Assembly: GCA_026414265.1 (NCBI GenBank)
Contig: JAOAJI010000005.1
Span: 1 to 50,748, forward strand
Source: Microcaldota archaeon
Lineage (GTDB): Archaea > Micrarchaeota > Micrarchaeia > Anstonellales > SKW190
Length of the DNA stretch: 50,748 bases
Direction: 5' to 3'
Made by a program: the position numbers and the translations under genes
The notes under the pieces: model-generated
Told to the model about the DNA's origin: nothing
Seen by the model: only the letters and a program-made list of their open reading frames with translations
The model's database searches: none
Shown here: positions 20,903-50,748 of the stretch, in pieces
Layout: every line of letters begins with the position of its first letter
Position numbering within the stretch: the stretch's first letter is position 1

Positions 20903-21736
20903 ATGGTTTCAGTCGTTCTAAGTGCAAACAAATTCGCCTATGTGGTACTAGGTATTTCTGCTGCAGCGTTATTGATAGCTTTTACCTTACCTACTGCAAA
21001 TGACTACTTAACTTTTGTTAAAATTCTTGCTACATTTTTAACTGCGTTAACAGCTCTAATTTCATTGCTCATTTACAAATATGGTTATATCATCATTCCT
21101 CAAATTACCAAGAGACTGAAGATAACTACACCTTTACCTTTGTATTTTGAAATTTCTCCGACTCAAGATACTATACTTGCCACTGATGGCAATCTATACT
21201 ATGCAAGTGCTTTCGTAGGCCTCAATATATTCAAGTCAGCAATAGAAAGACCCGAATCTGAAATGACCACTTACATGAAATCATTTGAACGTGCGATATC
21301 AGGTCTCAGATATGTCACAAAAATTTCTTATCTGATTTATGTAATAGATATCACCAAGAAAAGAGAATCCATTAAAGAAAAAATATACACTGTCCAATAC
21401 AAACTGAACAGGGAAAGAGAAAAAACAGACCCTGACCCTATAACTATCGAAAAACTCGAAAACGAACTGGCTTTGTGGCAAACAGAACTAGAGAGATTGA
21501 CAGCAGGAAACAAACCTATGGCTATTGTTGCATATGTCCAAACAACGGCAATAGGAGTGAGCAGAGAACAAGCAGTCGCTGTGGCAAAAAGACAGGCAGA
21601 AGAAATAAAAGCTTGGATACAGAACTCTTTAGCCGTAGATGCAAGAATATTAACAGCTGAAGACATGCTTAGATGCTTTGATTGGGAATTTATGATTCCT
21701 AGGGAATACGCAGAACTTGACCAACAATTAAACTGA
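20903..21736 (+). CDS. Two-pass membrane protein resembling the VirB4/TraC N-terminal region
   Basis: A 277-residue protein with two membrane helices at about 10-29 and 36-60 and a cytoplasmic domain. The soluble part (GNLYYASAFVGLNIF; ATYMKSF-like FERAISGLRY; a Glu/Lys coiled segment at 155-195; MAIVAYVQTTAIGVSREQAVAVAKRQAEEIKAWI; DARILTAEDMLRCFDW) resembles the N-terminal domain of VirB4/TrbE-type ATPases, which is normally fused to the motor. The motor is the next gene, about 35 bases downstream, so I read this as the split-off half. CGGTGGT precedes the ATG and TTTATAAAA lies about 28 bases upstream. Homology is pattern-based and needs a profile search. Confidence 0.62.
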   Translation: MVSVVLSANKFAYVVLGISAAALLIAFTLPTANDYLTFVKILATFLTALTALISLLIYKYGYIIIPQITKRLKITTPLPLYFEISPTQDTILATDGNLYYASAFVGLNIFKSAIERPESEMTTYMKSFERAISGLRYVTKISYLIYVIDITKKRESIKEKIYTVQYKLNREREKTDPDPITIEKLENELALWQTELERLTAGNKPMAIVAYVQTTAIGVSREQAVAVAKRQAEEIKAWIQNSLAVDARILTAEDMLRCFDWEFMIPREYAELDQQLN

Positions 21737-21771
21737 TAGATAATTAAACATTGACACTAGGTAGGATCTGT

Positions 21772-23328
21772 ATGGGATGGCTAAAAATTTGCGAAGTAGA
21801 TAACCAATCAATTTCGATGAGAAATATATTAGTTATGCCCCCTGAACCTCCTGCAGATTATCTAATGCACGACATAGCAGATTCTATCTACATAGGAAGA
21901 ACACGAATATTTAATATTCCATTTCATTGGCATCATAAGTACCTTACCAATCCTCATATTTGTGTAGTAGGGATTACTGGAGCAGGTAAATCATACTTTG
22001 TAAAAACGTTTTTGGTTAGGACAAGTTTAGTGTGGGGAACTAATGCAATCATCATAGACTGGGCAGGTGAATACAAAGATTGGGTTGCTAGTACTAATGG
22101 TAAAATAGTCTCTTTAGGCTCTGGAAACTACATTAATTTACTAGATTTAGGAGGAATGACCCCTAATGTCAGAATTAAACAAATAATAAGAAGTTTAGAA
22201 CTTCTTACAGATATTGGAAATTATCCAGAACAAAAAAGATTGACAGAGCTTGCTATAGAAAAAGCATACTTAGAGAATGGTTTTAAGCTAAGTGAAACCA
22301 AACAAGTTGACCAATTGGGTAGACCATTAAAAGTACCTACTCTAAAGGACGTTGTCAGAATATTAGAGGAGAAACTTGCAAAAGGCGATTACGAATTTCC
22401 TGCAGAATTAGAAAATGCAATTTACAGACTAAAACAATTCACCAAAGAAGGCCAAGACTACTTTGCCAGACAAAGTACACTTGATCTTGAAAACTTGACT
22501 AAATCAGGATTAGTAGACATAGACCTCTCGAAATTACCAGACGAAGTATTTAGAGCATTGTCTGCATTGACCATTTTACAGTTTTTGAAAGAAAAAATGA
22601 GACAAGAGGGCTGGGCAAAGGAAAAAGGAGTTAAATTATATATTGTACTAGATGAAGCATGGAAAATAGCCAAGGAAGAGAATAGCGATGCTGTAATGAT
22701 TGTAAGAGAAGGAAGAAAATATCAATTCGGGTTGATAGTTGCATCACAAAACCCTACTGACATAAGCGAAGCAATCTTTAGCAACGTGGGAACAACTTTT
22801 ATTCTTAAGATAAAATTCGAAAAGTATTTGGACTATTTACAAGGTACCTTGAACTTTTCAGATTTTATAAAAGAAGAGATTAGGAATTTAGGAGTAGGAC
22901 AAGCAGCTGTCAATTTGGCATGGACTGTTTCATCTGATTTTTCACAAACTTTTATTATAGACCACATTGAAGGCGAAGAACCCAGAAAAGAATACTTTAT
23001 AGATTTAGGGAGTGTCCTTGGTGATGATATGGCACAAACACTAGCTATTAGAAAAGATGATTTGAGAAAGAGATTAAAGCTTTATGGTGTTAATGAGACA
23101 CAAATAGAAGAAGTTAATTCAACCTTTGACAAGGGAAACAGACACATGGATATCGTAAACTTCGTAGTACTCTTAGACAAATTTGGTATCTCTAGAAGCA
23201 ATATTACATCCTTGCTCAAAGACTTAGGCCTTGATGACAGCACAATAATAAATATATTTACTAAAGTAGATTATAAGAAATTGGATATCATGAGTGAAGA
23301 AATGACTCAATTAGAATTAGACCAATAA
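21772..23328 (+). CDS. VirB4/HerA-like secretion ATPase
   Basis: A 518-residue motor ATPase of the VirB4/HerA-FtsK group. Walker A is VGITGAGKSYF (about 67-77), then IIIDWAGEYKDW, Walker B LYIVLDEAWK (about 285-295), a sensor-like REGRKYQFGLIVASQNPTDIS and an Arg-containing segment. LDLENLTKSGLVDIDLSKLP is the stretch preceding Walker B in VirB4/HerA proteins. The C-terminal 90 residues are helical, possibly a protein-binding tail. A TTG start would add seven residues; ATG at 21772 lies 6 bases after GGTAGGA. The preceding gene supplies the membrane part. Expected role: power substrate transfer or pilus assembly at the membrane. Confidence 0.85.
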   Translation: MGWLKICEVDNQSISMRNILVMPPEPPADYLMHDIADSIYIGRTRIFNIPFHWHHKYLTNPHICVVGITGAGKSYFVKTFLVRTSLVWGTNAIIIDWAGEYKDWVASTNGKIVSLGSGNYINLLDLGGMTPNVRIKQIIRSLELLTDIGNYPEQKRLTELAIEKAYLENGFKLSETKQVDQLGRPLKVPTLKDVVRILEEKLAKGDYEFPAELENAIYRLKQFTKEGQDYFARQSTLDLENLTKSGLVDIDLSKLPDEVFRALSALTILQFLKEKMRQEGWAKEKGVKLYIVLDEAWKIAKEENSDAVMIVREGRKYQFGLIVASQNPTDISEAIFSNVGTTFILKIKFEKYLDYLQGTLNFSDFIKEEIRNLGVGQAAVNLAWTVSSDFSQTFIIDHIEGEEPRKEYFIDLGSVLGDDMAQTLAIRKDDLRKRLKLYGVNETQIEEVNSTFDKGNRHMDIVNFVVLLDKFGISRSNITSLLKDLGLDDSTIINIFTKVDYKKLDIMSEEMTQLELDQ

Positions 23329-28276: not shown

Positions 28277-28738
28277 ATGCCTGGTGAATCATTCACTCAA
28301 ATGATTTTCTTCATTACTGCAGTTACTGTTGCAAGCATGCTCGTGTTTGCGTTAAACTCAAATTTCCAATCTTTCATGAAAAGTCTCAACTTTAAAGCTA
28401 AAAGCGTTTCTTCACAAGTAGCTACCTCAATAAAAATAATTAATGACCCTTGTTACTTAAATGACACTGTGCATGTTAAGAATATCGGCTCACCTATCCA
28501 AGACCCAAACACAACAACAATCATCATTAACGGAGAAATTAAAATGCCTTCAAACGTGACCATACAAATAGGCTCTAACTGGATACAGGTAAATTCATCA
28601 ACAATATGGGAAAAAGGCCAAATCGTAGCATTCAAAATGCCTAACACTTTACCTAAAAACAATCAACTAAATAGAATAAAAGTAGTCACAGAAAACGGTA
28701 TTTTTGATGAAATTGTTTATACTAACGTAAGTTGCTAA
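28277..28738 (+). CDS. ArlF/ArlG-like archaellum or pilus stator protein
   Basis: A 153-residue secreted protein. The short N-terminus MPGESFTQMIFFITAVTVASMLVFAL is the typical start of archaeal ArlF/ArlG (FlaF/FlaG) proteins, which have one helix without a long leader and an exterior beta-sandwich. The exterior domain (INDPCYLNDTVHVKNIGSP; TTTIIINGEI; VTENGIFDEIVYTNVSC) fits an immunoglobulin-like fold with a possible Cys-Cys bridge and several N-glycosylation sites. TTTTATATATAG about 40 bases upstream is a TATA box. Two pilin-like genes follow closely. No other archaellum genes are in the window, so the partner filament may be a pilus. Confidence 0.72.
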   Translation: MPGESFTQMIFFITAVTVASMLVFALNSNFQSFMKSLNFKAKSVSSQVATSIKIINDPCYLNDTVHVKNIGSPIQDPNTTTIIINGEIKMPSNVTIQIGSNWIQVNSSTIWEKGQIVAFKMPNTLPKNNQLNRIKVVTENGIFDEIVYTNVSC

Positions 28739-28765
28739 ACATAACTTAACATAAAAGGAACGAAA

Positions 28766-29155
28766 ATGTCAAATCATAATAAGAAACTTAATATAAAAAA
28801 AGCTCAAGTAGCTTTTGAGATTTCGATAAATATAGTTTCTTATTTTCTCTTCATAAGCATGTTATCTGCTAACATAGATACATTGGTAAATGAAAAGATT
28901 GTAAATAACATCTACCAAAAAAACGCATATACTATTGCTACTGAAACTGAGCTTGCTGTCCAAAACGCCAAATTGAGAAAAGGCATGATATATCACATAA
29001 ACTATGAGAATCTTTTAATAGAGAAAGTTAACAACGAAAGCCTGTTACTCAATTACACTTATCCACTGGCTTATGCAAAAATTGACGAGAATATGACGAT
29101 AGATGAGTTTGAAGGCAAAGGGATTGTTAATTCTTGGACAATTTCAAGAACATGA
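28766..29155 (+). CDS. Type IV pilin-like protein, class III signal peptide
   Basis: A 129-residue protein with a basic lead (NHNKKLNIKKA), the processing motif KAQVAFE, and a hydrophobic helix. In archaeal class III signal peptides the prepilin peptidase cuts before the Q, which leaves Glu at position 5 of the mature protein as here. The remaining 80 residues are a small exterior domain. Its stop overlaps the next ATG by four bases (ATGA), showing translational coupling. AAAGGAAC precedes the start. Likely a minor pilin. Confidence 0.75.
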   Translation: MSNHNKKLNIKKAQVAFEISINIVSYFLFISMLSANIDTLVNEKIVNNIYQKNAYTIATETELAVQNAKLRKGMIYHINYENLLIEKVNNESLLLNYTYPLAYAKIDENMTIDEFEGKGIVNSWTISRT

Positions 29156-29658
29156 TTATTATGATGATAATTGTGCAAAATAACATAAAAGCTCAGATCG
29201 CAACCATTGAGTTCGTAATGGCATCAACTGCAATCTTGTTCATGTATTTATTCTTGACTAACTATCTCAACACTTTAGCAGATAACACAGAAATAGAAAA
29301 AAACAGAGCTATCCTAAGAGCAGACATAGAAAAAATATCGACTTATACATTATCAGCTGGGAATCCAGAAAATTGGTCTATCCAATCAGGTGTTCCAGGT
29401 TTATTGTGCACAAACAATGTTGTATGCCAAGAAAAATTGGATTTGTTCATGCAATTGTGCTCATTAAATTATTCAAGAATAAAAAAATCATGGAATTTGA
29501 ATTCTGATTTTTCCATGAAATTAATAAATAATAGTTTTAGCCAATGCATTTGTAACTGTGGAATCACAAACAGAAAATTTTCTGAGACAGACATAATATC
29601 TATACCACATAATGATACTGTATACTCGATAATAATCTCAACCTATTCTCTAAAGTAG
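29152..29658 (+). CDS. Type IV pilin-like protein with Cys-rich exterior domain
   Basis: A 168-residue protein. The lead contains IKAQIATIEF, like the KAQxAFE motif of the neighbours but with Glu one place later, followed by a hydrophobic helix (VMASTAILFMYLFLTNYL). The exterior domain holds six Cys (LLCTNNVVC; LCSLN; CICNCG), suggesting disulfides. ATG at 29152 overlaps the previous stop (ATGA); a TTG 18 bases earlier is less likely. Probably a minor pilin acting with the previous two gene products. It converges on the LamG pilin gene. Confidence 0.72.
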   Translation: MIIMMIIVQNNIKAQIATIEFVMASTAILFMYLFLTNYLNTLADNTEIEKNRAILRADIEKISTYTLSAGNPENWSIQSGVPGLLCTNNVVCQEKLDLFMQLCSLNYSRIKKSWNLNSDFSMKLINNSFSQCICNCGITNRKFSETDIISIPHNDTVYSIIISTYSLK

Positions 29659-29686
29659 TTCAATCCATACTAGGTTTTTATAAAAA

Positions 29687-30775
29687 CTATATGTATTTGG
29701 CTAAATAATTTTCCTCTATTTCAAAACTGTCAAGAGCCCTTGAATAAATAAGGATTTCATCTATGTCCATTTTCGTAAATGAATTGGTTAGATTATTGGT
29801 TCCTATTGTTATTGGATTATTTAAAGAATTTACATTTATATTTCCAACAAAAGAAGAATTTACCAGTAGGGAATTGATGTACAAAGAAATATGTGTTGAA
29901 TTCTTTACAGCTACTATGTGATACCACTCATTCAACGCTATAGGATAAGAAACATTGTAAGAGCTTGAGTTACTAGCTACACGAAATACTATACTGTTGT
30001 CATTTCCAGTAGAAGATAAGAAGATACCGTATTCGGAAGACGATATTGTTGCATCAGATTTCCATTTAACTATTCCATAATAATTACTAAAGCCTGATGA
30101 GCCTTCAGTCTTTCTTAAAACAGCTAAAATTGAAAAATCAGATGAAGAGAATCTTATGTTGTCTTTGTCAGGTATTATGAAATAATTAGAACCGTTCAAA
30201 GAACAATAACTGTTTATGACCCCATTATTCTCTTTAGAACAATTAGGATTGTTAACAGAAATAGCGTGATTTTGATAAATAGTAGAATCATTAGTCGTGT
30301 TTGAAAAATTGTAACTTGCAACCAATCCATGTGTCTTTCCTAAAGTTGGATAAACTTTAACTACTTTGTTCTCTGCCTTGAAAACAGAGAATAAATACTT
30401 TCCAGTAGAATTTGGCAGTTTTCCTGTTATGTTAAACCTGAAATTCCTAAATGCAGTAGAGCCTTTGTAAGATATAGCTATGGCCTTACCTGAACCAAGT
30501 GAAGAATTTGAACCTATGTAACTGTTATTGAGGTCTATACCACTAGGAAAAACCAAGTATACGTATCTTTGTGAACCTATTGGCAGTCCATAAACCTGGT
30601 TAATTGTAAATTCTAAAGCTTCTAATGAAGTGTCAATACTCGAGACATTAGTAGAATCAACCAAATTAGCGTATGTAAAAGCAAATATAAGAACTATTGG
30701 AATGAGTAGCAGTGATGCTAACAACATGTTTTCAAAAGCTGCTTGGGCCTTTACAAAAAATTTTTTATTGGTCAT
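29687..30775 (-). CDS. Pilin-like protein with LamG (concanavalin-like) domain
   Basis: A 362-residue surface protein. The N-terminus has VKAQAAFENMLLASLLLIPIVLI, a class III signal peptide plus membrane helix with Glu at mature position 5. A beta-rich region (about 60-150) leads to a LamG-type lectin domain at about 165-362, with SYNFSNTTNDSTIYQNHA, DFSILAVLRKTEG, LNEWYHIVAVKNSTHISLYIN and DIDEILIYSRALDSFEIEENY, the classic closing signature. Many Asn-glycosylation sites. RBS AAGGT overlaps the upstream gene's stop; ATG at 30775 is preferred to a TTG six bases earlier. Likely an adhesin pilin for glycan or surface contact. Paralogue of the next gene. Confidence 0.82.
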   Translation of the reverse strand: MTNKKFFVKAQAAFENMLLASLLLIPIVLIFAFTYANLVDSTNVSSIDTSLEALEFTINQVYGLPIGSQRYVYLVFPSGIDLNNSYIGSNSSLGSGKAIAISYKGSTAFRNFRFNITGKLPNSTGKYLFSVFKAENKVVKVYPTLGKTHGLVASYNFSNTTNDSTIYQNHAISVNNPNCSKENNGVINSYCSLNGSNYFIIPDKDNIRFSSSDFSILAVLRKTEGSSGFSNYYGIVKWKSDATISSSEYGIFLSSTGNDNSIVFRVASNSSSYNVSYPIALNEWYHIVAVKNSTHISLYINSLLVNSSFVGNINVNSLNNPITIGTNNLTNSFTKMDIDEILIYSRALDSFEIEENYLAKYI

Positions 30776-30777
30776 AA

Positions 30778-31881
30778 TCAATTACCTTGATATCCCATGT
30801 AGTACAGATCCTCAACCTCAAATTTGTTCAATGACTTGTTGTAAATCCTTAAATCGTCTATAACTCCGTTTATGTATACACTACCCCTTCCGCCTATCCT
30901 GAAATAGTTCTGTGCTTCTGTAAAACCACCTGACCAAGTCGTTGAGTTCCTCTTTAGTCCGTTAACAAAAATGTCAATAGATCTATTGGTGTAATAAATA
31001 ACAACTACATGATACCATTTATTTACCTCCATTTGAACAGAAGAAGATACGTTGAACAGAGTTGCGCCTGAATTGTAAATAAAAGCAGTAGGCACGTTTG
31101 AAGGAACAGAAACAAACCAATGATATGTATAACCACCAACTACTACTTCATCCCAGGAAGAAGATTCAATAGTTGACGGTTTGTACCAAAACGAAATTGA
31201 TATATTGTTTGACAAAGGATTAGTGTAATTCCTTATCCCCAAAGGAATACTGATATAACTAATACTTCCAGAAAAATTACATGCAGTCTGTATTATTCCT
31301 GTAGTCGTATTACTACAATTTACATTTCCTGTTATAGTACCGTTAAACCTTTTCGTGTAATCATTAGTTGAATTATCAAAATTCCAATAAGAAATTAAAT
31401 TAATATCGTTGAACACGCCATTAAGGTCTTTTAAATTTTCGTATGTATCAATCCTTATTCTGTCATTAGAAGTCTTATAGACTCTTAACATATAGGTACC
31501 TGGATTTGATGGCAGTCTGCCATAAACATCAACACTAAATAGCTTGAATGCAGTTGACTGCTTGTACGCTATCTGTATCGATTTTCCTTTTGAACCGTTT
31601 AAAGAACCAATATAAGATAATGAACTGTTATAACCTGTTGGCAATGAGATTACCACATCAACAAATGAATTTGACGAGAGTTGTGTTAAGTCATCTACTG
31701 CTTTTCCTAATCGGTCAAGCGCGCTATTCACATAGTAGATTCCCAAAGAATCGTTAAAAGAGACATAGGCCAAAGAAGTCATATATAATATTACTATAGA
31801 TAAAATGACCATTGAACCAAAATATTCGAAAGCGGTCTGTGCCTTATGAATGTTATAACTCGAAAACAAAGATTTCTCCAT
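30778..31881 (-). CDS. Pilin-like protein with LamG (concanavalin-like) domain, second copy
   Basis: A 367-residue paralogue of the downstream gene with the same plan: lead with HKAQTAFEYFGSMVILSIVILYMTS, a beta region with LPTGYNSSLSYIGSLNGSKG (compare FPSGIDLNNSYIGSNSSLG in the paralogue), then a LamG domain with ISYWNFDNSTNDYTKR, ISISFWYKPS, VNKWYHVVVIYYTNRSIDIFVNG and GVIDDLRIYNKSLNKFEVEDLYY. The stop TGA abuts the next start region, so the two are co-translated. TTTAAGATG about 25 bases before the ATG suggests a leaderless mRNA. Tandem duplication is likely. Confidence 0.82.
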   Translation of the reverse strand: MEKSLFSSYNIHKAQTAFEYFGSMVILSIVILYMTSLAYVSFNDSLGIYYVNSALDRLGKAVDDLTQLSSNSFVDVVISLPTGYNSSLSYIGSLNGSKGKSIQIAYKQSTAFKLFSVDVYGRLPSNPGTYMLRVYKTSNDRIRIDTYENLKDLNGVFNDINLISYWNFDNSTNDYTKRFNGTITGNVNCSNTTTGIIQTACNFSGSISYISIPLGIRNYTNPLSNNISISFWYKPSTIESSSWDEVVVGGYTYHWFVSVPSNVPTAFIYNSGATLFNVSSSVQMEVNKWYHVVVIYYTNRSIDIFVNGLKRNSTTWSGGFTEAQNYFRIGGRGSVYINGVIDDLRIYNKSLNKFEVEDLYYMGYQGN

Positions 31882-46042: not shown

Positions 46043-46567
46043 ATGTATTATGTTTTGGTAATGATTGTTCTTCTGTACTTCTGCACAAATTTTTTCATCA
46101 GTGTTATATCTGACAACTATTCCTATGATTATTCCGTAATCTATAATAAACAAAATTATCAAATAGTGTTTTTTAAAGAACAAAGAATGAAACACGAGTT
46201 GGATAACGAAATAAAAAATATCGTATCGAAAATAGTAAACTCACAAGAATATCTTAATACTAAGGATTTAGCAGCAAAAACAGCGCTTTTTAAAACTAAT
46301 TTTGAAAAAGAATTACTCGAACTGGATAGTAAATTAAAAAAAGACGAAGTTGAACTAGTCTGCGTAAATAATAAAGAGCATAAGAAACTAATCATCCTTG
46401 AAAAGTTATATTACGGCAAATGCTATTCTTGTAAAAAAATCTGTGATTATGTTTTTTTACCAGATACTGAAAAGTTAATATTAATGCCATCAAACAGTTT
46501 TGCAGTACTTGGCTCATTAGATAACTACGCATACATCAGTGTTTCAGAAGTGAGTGCATATGGATAG
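46043..46567 (+). CDS. Pseudopilin-like protein, single N-terminal membrane helix
   Basis: A 174-residue protein. The N-terminus (MYYVLVMIVLLYFCTNFFISVIS) is a bare membrane helix with no basic lead, followed by a helical and beta exterior part containing Cys pairs (ELVCVNNKEH; GKCYSCKKICDYVF). I do not recognise a family. A TTG start 12 bases earlier is possible. It is the first of four small membrane-anchored proteins that run directly into a secretion ATPase gene, so it probably serves as a minor pilin or anchor of that system. It overlaps the next gene by 8 bases. Confidence 0.65.
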   Translation: MYYVLVMIVLLYFCTNFFISVISDNYSYDYSVIYNKQNYQIVFFKEQRMKHELDNEIKNIVSKIVNSQEYLNTKDLAAKTALFKTNFEKELLELDSKLKKDEVELVCVNNKEHKKLIILEKLYYGKCYSCKKICDYVFLPDTEKLILMPSNSFAVLGSLDNYAYISVSEVSAYG

Positions 46568-46820
46568 CTCTGAGTTGATTTTATCTCTCTTAATTGCAAG
46601 CATTGTTTCATTAATATTAATTAATTCACTAAAGAACTATATCAAAACTCTAGACTATCAAGCTATTAACAAGCTAAATCATGAATGTGAATTAGTTTTA
46701 TTCAGCAAAACAAATGCGAATATAGGTATAAAGCATAACGTTTTATCAAAAATTATAGAATTAGAGGAGGAAAATAAAAAATATTTAATTCTAGGCAATA
46801 TGTCTTGCAGAATAAATTGA
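46560..46820 (+). CDS. Pseudopilin-like protein, 86 residues
   Basis: Starts MDSSELILSLLIASIVSLILINSL, one membrane helix whose short acidic lead resembles ArlF/ArlG and minor pilin starts. A small exterior domain with two Cys (HECELVLF; GNMSCRIN) follows. ATG at 46560 is preferred to GTG at 46554; GTGAG precedes it inside the end of the previous gene. Second gene of the four-gene set; likely a minor pilin. Confidence 0.65.
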   Translation: MDSSELILSLLIASIVSLILINSLKNYIKTLDYQAINKLNHECELVLFSKTNANIGIKHNVLSKIIELEEENKKYLILGNMSCRIN

Positions 46821-46842
46821 CTTTTTTAAAAAGGCATTAAAT

Positions 46843-47118
46843 ATGTATTCGATTGACTTGGCGATTAATACAATAATTTTGTTTTTTATGATTCTTTACA
46901 TAATAAACTACATCTTTTTTATTAATTATGAAAAAATGGAGCAGATAAAAATCACAAAACTTCTACGCTTAGGCAATTACTTTATTACCAATGAAAATAC
47001 TCTAGACCACGATTTTCTCAGATTAAACAATATAACTTATTGTAAAGATTGCTATTTAACAGGAACTGTTTGTATTTCCAGGAAAGAAACTGTTTATTGC
47101 TTTGAGGTGATAGGTTAA
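46843..47118 (+). CDS. Pseudopilin-like protein with four-Cys cluster, 91 residues
   Basis: Starts MYSIDLAINTIILFFMILYIINYIFFI, a membrane helix. The exterior part ends in YCKDCYLTGTVCISRKETVYCFEV, whose four Cys could form two disulfides or bind metal. AAGGC lies 8 bases before the ATG. Third of the four-gene set. Its final codons contain the GAGGTGAT that serves the next gene. Confidence 0.65.
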   Translation: MYSIDLAINTIILFFMILYIINYIFFINYEKMEQIKITKLLRLGNYFITNENTLDHDFLRLNNITYCKDCYLTGTVCISRKETVYCFEVIG

Positions 47119-47119
47119 A

Positions 47120-47386
47120 ATGTACCATTCACTTGAAACACTTATAAGCATGATTGTATTTATCTTTTGCTTGAACGTTCTGTTAAACACATTAACATCT
47201 ATAGACTGGGAATTAACAGAAAGTGTAATTGAAATAAAAATAAGTTATGCCTTAGATTATTACCAAGGCTATGTTTTAAAAGATACGCAAATTTACCAAA
47301 CGGCATTTCCTGAAATGATCAAATGCGATCAAAAACTCAAAATTGTGTTAAAAAATTGGTACAATTCGTATACTGTAATCTGCTGA
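47120..47386 (+). CDS. Pseudopilin-like protein, 88 residues
   Basis: Starts MYHSLETLISMIVFIFCLNVLLNTL, a membrane helix with a Glu near residue 6, then an exterior domain of about 60 residues with two Cys (MIKCDQKL; YTVIC). GAGGTGAT (47103-47110) overlaps the end of the previous gene and lies 9 bases before the ATG. Fourth of the set; the secretion ATPase gene follows after 76 bases with a possible second promoter (TTATAAAG). Confidence 0.67.
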   Translation: MYHSLETLISMIVFIFCLNVLLNTLTSIDWELTESVIEIKISYALDYYQGYVLKDTQIYQTAFPEMIKCDQKLKIVLKNWYNSYTVIC

Positions 47387-47462
47387 TGTTTATAATAAAC
47401 TTCATTAAAATACAACACCTAATTGATATTGATTATAAAGTAAAATATTCTTTTTATGTCAT

Positions 47463-49742
47463 ATGTGTTTACCAACCTTAGAGGGCAATAGACTTATAAT
47501 GGATTGTGCACACTGCTCATACGAGATGTACTCTGCTAAATGTATTCAGAGCCATCTGAAAACGATATCTGCATTTCAATCAGTTTGGAAAGAAATGCGA
47601 TACGAAGAAGAAGTAACGATTAACTTCGCTCCTGAATCAGTAAATACATTAGTCGAGTATGTTATCTTCATACGAGACTTCGAAAAAATAATGAGTGATC
47701 AGAAAACTTATGGACATCCTCAAGATGAAAATTATAACAAAAGAATAAATTTGCTCAAATCAGCTTATGAAAAACTTTTTATTGACCCGAAAAAAGTAAT
47801 AGATATCATTGAATCCTACAACGAAGACTTGCCTCAAAGATCAGTATTCTTGGATGGATATAACAAGTTCTCGGTTATAAGAAAGGCTCTGCTCAAGGTT
47901 CTCAAAAACCTCAAAATTATCAACGAAATGCAAAACAAGCATACAGTAAGAGAGCTGTTCCTCGAATATGCAAAACTAAAAGAGTACGAATTCGTTGAAA
48001 TGCTATTGTTACCTGTACCGCCTAACGCCAAACCAATAGACGATCCAGACAGTAAAATACAATTACCATACGGGATAGTCGCTAAAGTCTATGACCTTGA
48101 AGGCAGTGAAGCCAATATTTATCTCATTGAAAACACATATCTGGAGAATATACCTCCTCAAATAATACCTTATATAAAACAATTGATTGAAGAAGAAACC
48201 AAAGCTTTTCCTTCTTCTGAGGACATGGCAGGACTATTCGAAAACAAGATCAGGGAATACAGGAACTATTTCAACGAAAAAGCTCTGCAACTAAATATCA
48301 CTTTGACTCCTCAACAAGCCCTGGGAATAGCAAGAGAATGTGCGTGCTGGACAGTCGGCTTAGGCGCACCTATAGAAAACCTTGCTCTTGATAAAGAAAA
48401 CATCACAGATATTTACATAGACGGCCAAAACAGTCCAATATACATTGAACACAGAAAATTTGGGCTTTGTCACACAATCTACAGGTACAACTTGAATTTG
48501 CTTGAACATGCATTCAGGAATATCGTGCTTTTTTCAGGAGAAGGAAGAAAATTCGACGACAAAAATCCTGTAGTAGATGTTGTGCTAAAAAGATTGGCTA
48601 TGCGATGCCACCTCCAAAGACCACCAGCAACATTCTCAGAACTGCAAGGGGCTCTTAGAATAATGAGGGCACTACCATTCACTTATTGCCAATACTTAAA
48701 CTACTATGCTATGACGCCTTTCTATGCAGGCTACGATGATTTAATGGTTTCACTTGGTTGCAGCGAAGCAGTATTAGGCTTGAAAGGCGTTGGAAAAACA
48801 TCTTTTACAGCTGCAAAAATTGCTGCCATTGGTACTAAAATGAGAATCCTTCCTATTCAAGATATTGAAGAGATTCCAGTTAAAGCCTACAGGAAAAGAG
48901 GGTTCCACATAGGCGCAATGAAAGTTCAGAGCTCAGACATAGAAGGAATGCATCAAATCGGAGGTAATGAATTAGATTTGTTGAGCATGGCAAACGCATC
49001 ACTGAGAATGGGTGATGCGTGTATTATCATAAACGAAATTAGGTCTAGAACAACTATTCAAGGTGTCATCAATATACTGAATACTCAACCAGGTGTTTTT
49101 ATATTATATAATCTGCACGCACAAAGCCTGAAAGACGTACAAGACAGACTGGAATTGGTATTTGGAATACCTAGTGCTAGTATGTACGCAACAGAAAGAT
49201 ATACATTCCTAAAAAAAGTTAGGTTCGGAAGACAAAAAACAGTCAACAGAGTACTTGGTGAAGCGTATGAAACAGATATCAACAATAAAGAATTCGTACA
49301 AACTTTTGGCTTCAAAAAAAGAACCTCAATGAAAGACTCTGCTTTACTTTGTTACTTTTTAAAAAATCCTGAAGCGCATTCATGGACCCTTGATAACCTT
49401 GACCTTACTAAGCTCAAGAAAAATCTCAATTTCTCTGCAGAACCACCTGTTGTCAAAAAACGTGCTAATGACAACGGATTTGAATTAGAAGATTATATTA
49501 TGGACGCATTCTTCAAGGCAAAGATTTATTACGATATAAAAGAAATTGCAAGTAGAACAAATCTAAAAAAATTACTCGAAATTGACTTTGTTTTGAAAGT
49601 AACTGCAGAAGCAAACAAGTTATTGGTTATGCACGAAAAGAAATACGGAGGAATCGATTATTCTAACTTAGTGCCTGAATGGAACGAAATATTCAAGCAA
49701 TTGGCCAAAGAAGAAATTACTCTTCTGAAAACTAACCAGTAA
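47463..49742 (+). CDS. VirB11/GspE-type secretion ATPase
   Basis: A 759-residue ATPase of the type II/IV secretion group, expected to drive pilus or archaellum-like assembly. The N-terminal 25 residues contain DCAHCSYEMYSAKC, a possible zinc site. Residues about 60-290 are helical, 290-430 the NTD2-like part (ECACWTVGLGAPIENLALDKENITDIYIDG). Walker A is GLKGVGKTSF (about 439-448), then PIQDIEEIPV and Walker B ACIIINEIRSRTTIQG (about 518-533), HAQS and a C-terminal helical region. The Walker A lacks the usual GPTGSGKTT but keeps GxGKTS. ATG at 47463 or 47499 are both possible. No TadC/ArlJ membrane partner is in the window. Confidence 0.87.
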   Translation: MCLPTLEGNRLIMDCAHCSYEMYSAKCIQSHLKTISAFQSVWKEMRYEEEVTINFAPESVNTLVEYVIFIRDFEKIMSDQKTYGHPQDENYNKRINLLKSAYEKLFIDPKKVIDIIESYNEDLPQRSVFLDGYNKFSVIRKALLKVLKNLKIINEMQNKHTVRELFLEYAKLKEYEFVEMLLLPVPPNAKPIDDPDSKIQLPYGIVAKVYDLEGSEANIYLIENTYLENIPPQIIPYIKQLIEEETKAFPSSEDMAGLFENKIREYRNYFNEKALQLNITLTPQQALGIARECACWTVGLGAPIENLALDKENITDIYIDGQNSPIYIEHRKFGLCHTIYRYNLNLLEHAFRNIVLFSGEGRKFDDKNPVVDVVLKRLAMRCHLQRPPATFSELQGALRIMRALPFTYCQYLNYYAMTPFYAGYDDLMVSLGCSEAVLGLKGVGKTSFTAAKIAAIGTKMRILPIQDIEEIPVKAYRKRGFHIGAMKVQSSDIEGMHQIGGNELDLLSMANASLRMGDACIIINEIRSRTTIQGVINILNTQPGVFILYNLHAQSLKDVQDRLELVFGIPSASMYATERYTFLKKVRFGRQKTVNRVLGEAYETDINNKEFVQTFGFKKRTSMKDSALLCYFLKNPEAHSWTLDNLDLTKLKKNLNFSAEPPVVKKRANDNGFELEDYIMDAFFKAKIYYDIKEIASRTNLKKLLEIDFVLKVTAEANKLLVMHEKKYGGIDYSNLVPEWNEIFKQLAKEEITLLKTNQ

Positions 49743-49750
49743 AAAACATG

Positions 49751-50143
49751 TCAGCATGTAATTTGAGTTCCTCCTCCACCACCACTTGTAGCTGCAGACC
49801 ATAAACTATTTATTATTGCAGGTCCTGCAGTTGCTATTATCAATCCCATGATTGCGCCTACAAGCATGTTGTTGCTCCATACATTTGCCCTGGCCCTTGT
49901 CTCTGCACCTGTAAACTGACCACCAATGTATACAACTCCAGAACCCATGATCATCAACATTGCTAATGGAGGTATTAGACTTCTTACACCGTTACATACA
50001 TCACAAATCGTAATGCATAACTGTCTTAATCCAGTATTTGTAATAGAATTACATTGTGACTGACATTGAGGATTTTGAGAAAAACCTAATGAAACAAACA
50101 GTATCATTAAAATTGATAATGTCCTAAAAACTTTTTCTATCAT
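49751..50143 (-). CDS. VirB2-like pilin
   Basis: A 130-residue secreted protein with a signal peptide (MIEKVFRTLSILMILFVSLGFS, cut probably before QNPQ), a Cys-rich segment (QCQSQCNSITN; LCITICDVCNG), two membrane helices (LIPPLAMLMIMGSGVVYIGG and AIMGLIIATAGPAIINSLW) separated by TGAETRARANVWSNN, and a Gly-rich end with a final Cys. The plan of two helices with a short polar loop is that of VirB2/TrbC pilins (T4SS_pilin-like). TATATAAC about 25 bases before ATG 50143 favours this start over one 18 bases earlier. It converges on the secretion ATPase gene. Confidence 0.72.
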   Translation of the reverse strand: MIEKVFRTLSILMILFVSLGFSQNPQCQSQCNSITNTGLRQLCITICDVCNGVRSLIPPLAMLMIMGSGVVYIGGQFTGAETRARANVWSNNMLVGAIMGLIIATAGPAIINSLWSAATSGGGGGTQITC

Positions 50144-50219
50144 AAAATTCGCCTTTGGCATATGTTATATACTATAGTGGTAATTTTTATAATTCTTTTT
50201 TGTAATCGATTGTAGTAAA

Positions 50220-50748
50220 CTAGTAACCCCATATTATCCAACAATTAAATGGAAGTGTTACACCGCCACCATGAGGAGGAGGTGGTGGTGGAGTAACAAC
50301 GGTATCGTCTTGTTTTCTTATTAATGTAACTTTATGAGGCAAACCTTTCAATGGACTGTCGCAAACTCCCTCAAAGTAGATTCTATCTAAACTGACGTTT
50401 ACAGTTACGTTGTGATGCAAGTAAAGATTCTTGAATACAACTGTAGCGGAATTATTTGTTGAATTTAAGTTAATCCAATCACTTTCACTTACAGGTATAC
50501 TCGCTGCAGCTGAAGAACCTGCCTTTTCAAGAATAGCCAAGTCTAACTTAACCTTAAATTTAACATTACTGTCAGTACAGTAGAAATGCTTAGGCTTCAA
50601 AGTCAAGTTATATGTTAGATTATAATAACCATTAGCTGGAACATCAAATGTATTTGATATAATTTGTCCTGAGGCATATGTACCGTTAGTCAAGTTTTGA
50701 ATGAAGTATTCAATTTCCTGACCTATTCTCGAATCAGATAGATTTATT
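50220..50748 (-). CDS. Secreted beta-rich protein, N-terminus cut by window edge
   Basis: The frame is open to the right edge, so 176 residues are visible. It contains a beta-rich domain with many N-glycosylation sites (YYNLTYNLTLKP; NSTNNSATVVF; HHNVTVNVSLDRI), two or three Cys, then a hinge of six Pro followed by HGGGVTLPFNCWIIWGY. I do not recognise the family. It lies on the same strand before the VirB2-like pilin, 77 bases away, so a surface or pilus-associated role is likely. The Pro run would require aIF5A for smooth translation. Confidence 0.7.
   Translation of the reverse strand, partial: INLSDSRIGQEIEYFIQNLTNGTYASGQIISNTFDVPANGYYNLTYNLTLKPKHFYCTDSNVKFKVKLDLAILEKAGSSAAASIPVSESDWINLNSTNNSATVVFKNLYLHHNVTVNVSLDRIYFEGVCDSPLKGLPHKVTLIRKQDDTVVTPPPPPPHGGGVTLPFNCWIIWGY

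Follow-up and report, generated by a model that had tools for sequence, protein, structure and literature searches.

Glu5 is near-universal in type 4 pilins, with the exception of the capping subunit of the minor-pilin tip complex, which is formed by the H, I, J and K minor pilins (PMC10191384). Archaeal minor pilins, such as EpdA-C of Methanococcus and those of the type IV pilus loci surveyed by Makarova et al. 2016 (PMC4858521), are small, ATPase-linked, poorly conserved and often Cys-rich, and ArlF and ArlG are archaellin-like but leaderless (PMC8978795). The main text of the archaeal survey does not name Micrarchaeota (PMC4858521). Here we describe four small genes that lead into an ATPase gene on a stretch of 50,748 nucleotides (nt) from a Microcaldota archaeon (contig JAOAJI010000005.1, hereafter the window), and compare them with their counterparts in a phylum sample of 295 micrarchaeal genomes and an order sample of 59 genomes. 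Micrarchaeota presumably live on other archaea, with pili as a suspected contact organ, and to our knowledge their minor pilins have not been described. The four genes, named A-B-C-D in order of transcription, resemble in gene order and topology a real, conserved and hitherto undescribed minor-pilin-like set of Micrarchaeota. Our preferred reading, which we hold with about even confidence, is that the window carries a reduced copy of this set and that the set forms the priming/tip complex of a type 4 filament.

At about 50 micrarchaeal loci across the class, including other orders, the genes stand in the fixed order A-B-C-D and overlap or almost touch; the gene order is indeed conserved. In the relatives, A has about 190 amino acids (aa), begins with MRG|YLSFVLV... 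and carries a CxxCxxxxC motif, while B has about 105 aa and a K(G/A)|QxxxE5 start (the canonical class III motif being KGQxxxE). C has about 132 aa with KG-xxSFD, and D about 120 aa, leaderless, with MQTIEAIIS. The median lengths make A the longest (202 aa, vs 105 for B, 132 for C and 123 for D). Profiles built without the window sequences detect C and D in 31/59 and 33/59 of the order genomes, respectively, and most of the loci so detected have the A-B-C-D order. No Pfam or NCBIfam family was found for A, B, C or D, and neither database gave any homology to the H-I-J-K families. In a naive view of open reading frames (ORFs), none of 40 relatives has such a set immediately ahead of the ATPase gene; the quartet lies instead downstream of it or a few kb off, and in one family the four-gene unit stands a few kb downstream of the ATPase on the opposite strand.

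An acidic residue near +5 was found in none of the 53 A proteins with a recognisable leader, and in 60/61 B, 63/63 C and 58/58 D proteins (181/182 for the latter three together). Where the acid of B was counted at +3, a greedy motif pattern had matched QA; the true position is E5. The window proteins follow the same pattern, with no acid in A, E5 in B (MDSSE), D5 in C (MYSID) and E6 in D (MYHSLE). Three subunits with the acid and the largest without it is an arrangement compatible with a tip module. The bacterial H-I-J-K minor pilins (GspH-K/PilHIJK/ComGD-G) likewise form a row of four small pilin-like genes beside an assembly-type ATPase, and share the acid near +5 in three proteins and its absence from the largest. 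The micrarchaeal set differs from them in that no sequence homology is detectable and in that the predicted C and D structures match no solved pilin; the window set differs further in having lost its leaders and in having no platform, major pilin or prepilin peptidase beside it. A fixed set with the H-I-J-K acid signature would suggest the same priming logic in archaea, without detectable homology.

In such a complex, the N-terminal helix would anchor each subunit in the membrane and leave the Cys-bearing head outside. The acid near position 5 of B, C and D would pair with the N-terminus of a neighbouring subunit, as in type 4 pilins, and A, the largest and acid-less protein, would be the capping subunit. 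The motor that draws the complex out of the membrane would probably be the adjacent TadA/VirB11-type ATPase, working on a platform protein encoded at another locus. In the window, all four proteins would have lost the class III leader and would start at or next to mature +1, so that no prepilin peptidase would be needed. Complex formation, location at the tip, a platform provided in trans and the ATPase as motor are what we infer.

The window genes all lie on the forward strand (Table 1). A and B share 11 nt, and the gaps between the other neighbours are 22 nt (B-C), 1 nt (C-D) and 76 nt (D to the ATPase gene); an alternative start of gene A is possible at TTG 46031. The hydrophobic helix begins 1-10 residues from the start in all four ORFs, each of which has 2-5 Cys. 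The hydrophobic helix at the N-terminus of the A protein (MYYVLVMIVLLYF) lacks an acidic residue near +5, and the C-terminal CxxCxxxC (KCYSCKKIC) of this protein is similar to the CxxCxxxxC of the relatives. Chance or spurious ORFs were ruled out for A, B and D by coding bias and for C by homology. In their right frame and in no other, A, B and D reach codon-usage scores of 0.19-0.22 bits/codon, above all 24 spurious overlapping window ORFs of similar size (at most 0.12), while the score of C, 0.10, does not stand above the spurious ORFs on composition alone. None of the four proteins matches a Pfam family. The earlier note, made from the DNA alone, had described a row of small genes, each encoding a membrane helix and an exterior Cys-containing domain, overlapping or nearly touching, without a long class III leader and running into an ATPase. 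This description agrees with our results, ORF inspection having found no basic class III leader ahead of any of the four, with the amendment that one Cys of A and one of D lie inside the hydrophobic helix and not in the exterior part.

Table 1 Coordinates of the window features (positions counted from the first nucleotide of the window).
Feature	Position	Strand	Description	Basis
Gene A	46043-46567	+	174 aa	ORF, coding score
Gene B	46557-46820	+	87 aa; M-D-S-S-E5, then helix	ORF, coding score, position, E5
Gene C	46843-47118	+	91 aa; M-Y-S-I-D5, then helix	Profile homology
Gene D	47120-47386	+	88 aa; MYHSLE(6)TLIS, then helix	Weak match to D profile
TadA/VirB11/ArlI-superfamily ATPase	47463-49742	+	759 aa	Profile and motif matches
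VirB2/TrbC-like small secreted pilin-like protein	49751-50161	-	Convergent with ATPase gene	Topology, Pfam matches below cut-off

The class III leader to be expected of a tip complex is lacking in all four window proteins. Leader motifs, although short, are kept on the A, B and C proteins of the relatives, and most D proteins of other orders carry a K-G motif as well. The D proteins of this order start at the initiator Met, as a rule four residues ahead of the Glu, and a stop codon stands immediately before the D start in eight species (L191, L046, L204, L060, L157, L158, L159 and L154), which makes a leader impossible for D in these. Since the motifs persist on A-C of the relatives and on D of other orders, the leaderless state is derived in the window lineage: D has lost its leader across the order, and A, B and C have additionally lost theirs here. 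D, leader-bearing elsewhere and leaderless in this order, offers a natural series on the need for leader cleavage in pilin assembly. The host genome has a candidate prepilin peptidase on contig C22 (23.5 bits, slightly below cut-off).

The absence of leaders also recalls ArlF/ArlG (FlaF/FlaG), which share with the window proteins a pilin-like N-terminal helix and an external domain and, like them, have no class III leader. The four proteins could accordingly be envelope anchors or stators without signal peptide, tying the base of a motor to the surface layer, as the window four and the D proteins of the order are leaderless in the same way. ArlF and ArlG are, however, two proteins with other domains, encoded in the arl cluster with ArlI/ArlJ, whereas the window has four proteins with the H-I-J-K acid pattern, no ArlF/G family match in Pfam or NCBIfam, and no platform or arl genes adjacent. 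The leader absence being a derived state also argues against a stator, and we find this explanation quite unlikely. It is very improbable that the quartet is a decaying, non-functional remnant with eroded leaders and heads: the four lost leaders and proteins shorter than those of the relatives would be in line with decay, but the frames are intact, the starts lie at or next to mature +1, neither the acids nor the Cys have been lost, and A, B and D retain coding bias.

Orthology of the window set to the A-B-C-D of the relatives is probable. A profile of 20 C sequences that excluded the window has a single match in the whole 1.18-Mb host genome (E<=0.01), which is window gene C (E=1.4e-4). The same gene is the best of the 352 window reading frames (E=1.1e-6) and, against 4828 ORFs, the best non-quartet match (23.6 bits), and it keeps the C-I-x-R motif of the C family. 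A and B were placed by order, size and acid pattern, A additionally by its similar Cys motif, so that their assignment would follow from position and not from sequence. A class-wide, re-trained C profile was contaminated by paralogous pilins, the protein at 29134-29658 scoring above window C, and class-wide profiles were for this reason not used for orthology. We regard it as rather unlikely that the window genes are unrelated or paralogous small membrane proteins standing by chance before the ATPase, the true quartet having been lost or left unsequenced in a 91%-complete genome. Sequence significance for C only would agree with such an origin, as would the much shorter window proteins (B 87 vs 105, C 91 vs 132 and D 88 vs 123 aa) and the presence of more pilin-like genes in the genome (28766-29658 of the window; locus L085 on contig C39). 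Gene number, order, the size rank of A, spacing and acid pattern are nevertheless those of the conserved set, and the sole genome match of the C profile falls on the third gene and the best window match of the D profile on the fourth.

The ATPase belongs to the TadA/VirB11/GspE secretion superfamily, in agreement with the VirB11/GspE-type assignment of the earlier note. It matches the NCBIfam TadA profile TIGR03819 (E=3.8e-16, below the equivalog cut-offs), the archaellum ATPase and VirB11 NCBIfam profiles, and the structures of AfGspE (PDB 2oap) and CpaF, despite a Pfam T2SSE score below the cut-off (15.9 vs 24.9 bits). With TadA/CpaF, VirB11 and ArlI it shares the C-terminal ATPase domain, with Walker A (GLKGVGKT), Walker B (INEIRSR) and Asp and His boxes, of which K445, T446, E470, E525 and H552 are invariant in the order; it differs from them by a long divergent N-terminal domain, by its scores below the T2SSE and equivalog cut-offs and by having no neighbouring platform. 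Of the order genomes, 57/59 have one ortholog each (45-54% identity over the full length); in the phylum sample the ATPase is present in 92/295 genomes, comprising nearly the whole order and a further 13 genomes from seven other families. In an alignment-based scan, the matching loci were mostly Candidatus Micrarchaeota.

The absence of a nearby platform protein, claimed from the sequence, holds as well: no T2SSF match was found on the window contig, and 11 T2SSF matches lie elsewhere in the host genome. Every order genome has T2SSF genes at other places than the ATPase locus, and among all loci searched, a platform stands beside the ATPase only in L242 and L078/L256. A dedicated platform near the ATPase is thus ruled out apart from these exceptions, and since nearly all relatives share its absence, the missing platform is a general property rather than an accident of the window. 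With no platform on the contig or in nearly all ATPase neighbourhoods, the locus does not amount to a complete type IV pilus locus, and it differs in this from the archaeal minor pilins (EpdA-C and the surveyed loci, PMC4858521), which keep class III signals and a TadC-like platform in the locus, the window set having neither. At eight platform loci examined, the platform genes come with their own ATPase, and most also with a KGQAAMEYL-type major pilin. The near-universal ATPase of the order, without an adjacent platform, makes shared platforms testable.

C and the ATPase are on the same contig in 18 genomes, within 7.1 kb in 12 and 26-51 kb apart in six. The 12 close cases comprise the window (0.6 kb) and 11 genomes from one family. 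Divergent quartets of family f4 lie no more than about 6 kb from the ATPase (L255, L258, L052 and L238), and in L255 and L258 the layout is VirB2-like-A-B-C-D, then opposite-strand genes, then the ATPase. These cases are not independent, because an ancestral linkage may be common to them. In genomes outside the order, presence of the ATPase and presence of C go together (11/13 vs 15/200, Fisher p=7e-10, not phylogeny-corrected).

The gene convergent with the ATPase gene encodes a VirB2/TrbC-like protein with a signal peptide, two hydrophobic segments and a GAETRARANVW loop. Its Pfam matches are below cut-off (T4SS_pilin 0.0075, TrbC 0.0096), and no sequence match was found among solved VirB2-like pilins. 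The family with the conserved GAETRAR loop is near-universal and multi-copy (240/295 genomes). A VirB2-like gene stands directly upstream of A on the same strand in L158, L160, L161, L162, L165, L168, L173, L174, L255, L258 and others, a clustering with the quartet seen in at least four families, and members of the family lie close to the ATPase gene in L236, L071, L226 and the window. The window also holds a split VirB4 at 20903-23328, consisting of a 277-aa protein with N-terminal hydrophobic helices (20903-21736) followed by a TraG/HerA-like ATPase (21751-23328). Homologs of the 277-aa VirB4N-like protein occur in 245/295 genomes, often two per genome, and VirB4 as an obligate partner of the quartet was ruled out, being phylum-wide and mostly distant. 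A gene at 50220-50747 (reverse strand), upstream of the VirB2-like gene, is cut at the contig end; what is left encodes the C-terminal portion of a protein that has a PPPPPPHGGG stretch.

These neighbours raise the alternative that the quartet is the external adaptor or tip of VirB2-like filaments in a type IV secretion or conjugation-like machine, with the VirB11-like ATPase and the VirB4-like protein (21751-23328) as motors. The position of VirB2-like genes immediately upstream of A in at least four families and beside the ATPase gene in the window, the abundance of both VirB2-like and VirB4N-like genes, and the matches of the ATPase to VirB11 profiles speak for it. Because the VirB2-like and VirB4N-like genes are near-universal, however, their link to the quartet is suggestive only, and they also occur in families without quartet or ATPase, so they function without them. 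VirB4 is near the quartet only occasionally (L159, L258 and L255), no VirB6-like gene was found adjoining the quartet, and B and C bear type IV pilin leaders and the acid at 5, unlike subunits of type IV secretion systems. We therefore hold a secretion machine to be unlikely. The Ced/Ted DNA import systems (VirB2-like CedA1/TedC, VirB4-like CedB/TedB; PMC9905601) resemble the locus in that a VirB2-like two-helix secreted protein is nearby and a VirB4-like gene is on the contig; they are not described with a pilin quartet (PMC9905601), and no VirB6-like gene was identified at the window set. It is doubtful, but conceivable, that a leaderless, peptidase-independent tip complex with a dedicated, platform-less ATPase is coupled to VirB2-like pilins as a hybrid of type 4 pilus and type IV secretion system, in a presumably episymbiotic phylum.

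Several observations weigh against a micrarchaeal priming/tip complex powered by the adjacent ATPase. Quartets occur in lineages lacking the ATPase (L279, L284, L285, L287, L288 and L295), C is found in the ATPase-less families f16, f17, f20, f21, f24, f25 and f28, and some genomes have the ATPase and no detected C; because of the ATPase-less families, the association at family level is weak and the quartet can exist without it. No platform is consistently close to the quartet or the ATPase, and in genomes that have a single platform pair, this pair already comes with an ATPase of its own. The C profile scores other pilins of the same genome at 19.8 and 17.6 bits, vs 23.6 for window C, so it does not separate orthologs cleanly from paralogs; the best window match of the D profile, the fourth gene, is weak (E=0.03) and covers the helix region only, and no profile gives a significant match for window A or B among the window frames. 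As for structure, the C and D proteins of relatives were modelled, each singly. The C model of L224 is a single 48-residue helix (13-60) followed by antiparallel strands (pLDDT 87, pTM 0.68), which would correspond to the general type IV pilin plan, and the D model has three helices and a hairpin (pLDDT 85, pTM 0.60). Neither C nor D matched a solved pilin or any other solved structure in PDB and Foldseek searches, and the fold support is partial for this reason.

The interpretation offered in the earlier note, an undescribed minor-pilin set or pilus-tip module associated with the ATPase, is accordingly upheld in part. The set is a fixed-order unit absent from Pfam and NCBIfam with the expected acid pattern, which also fits a tip, while the predicted folds of C and D are only partly pilin-like and neither model matches a solved pilin. 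The tie to the ATPase takes the form of recurrent proximity in several families, without the quartet being strictly bound to it.

The window neighbours include an archaeal-type tyrosyl-tRNA synthetase (TyrRS), a tRNA endonuclease and a DUF357 protein, which points to an archaeal host. The host genome has 1.18 Mb, is 91% complete and has a reported contamination of 3.3%; its contig C47 (locus L087) resembles a bacterial CpaB/CpaC/TadA/TadB cluster and is likely an assembly contamination. Contig C39 (L085:7526-9790) has four pilin-like genes in the order B-C-C'-A, beside a complete ATPase and a split platform. Leader-bearing pilins are encoded at 28766-31881 of the window. A second small pilin-like cluster at 28277-29658 consists of a 153-aa leaderless protein and two KAQ-leader proteins, the last of which scores 17.6 bits on the C profile. 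Next to it, two adjacent pilin-like proteins with KAQ leaders (364 and 367 aa, 29687-31881, reverse strand) have an apparent LamG-type C-terminal domain and are candidate adhesive pilins.

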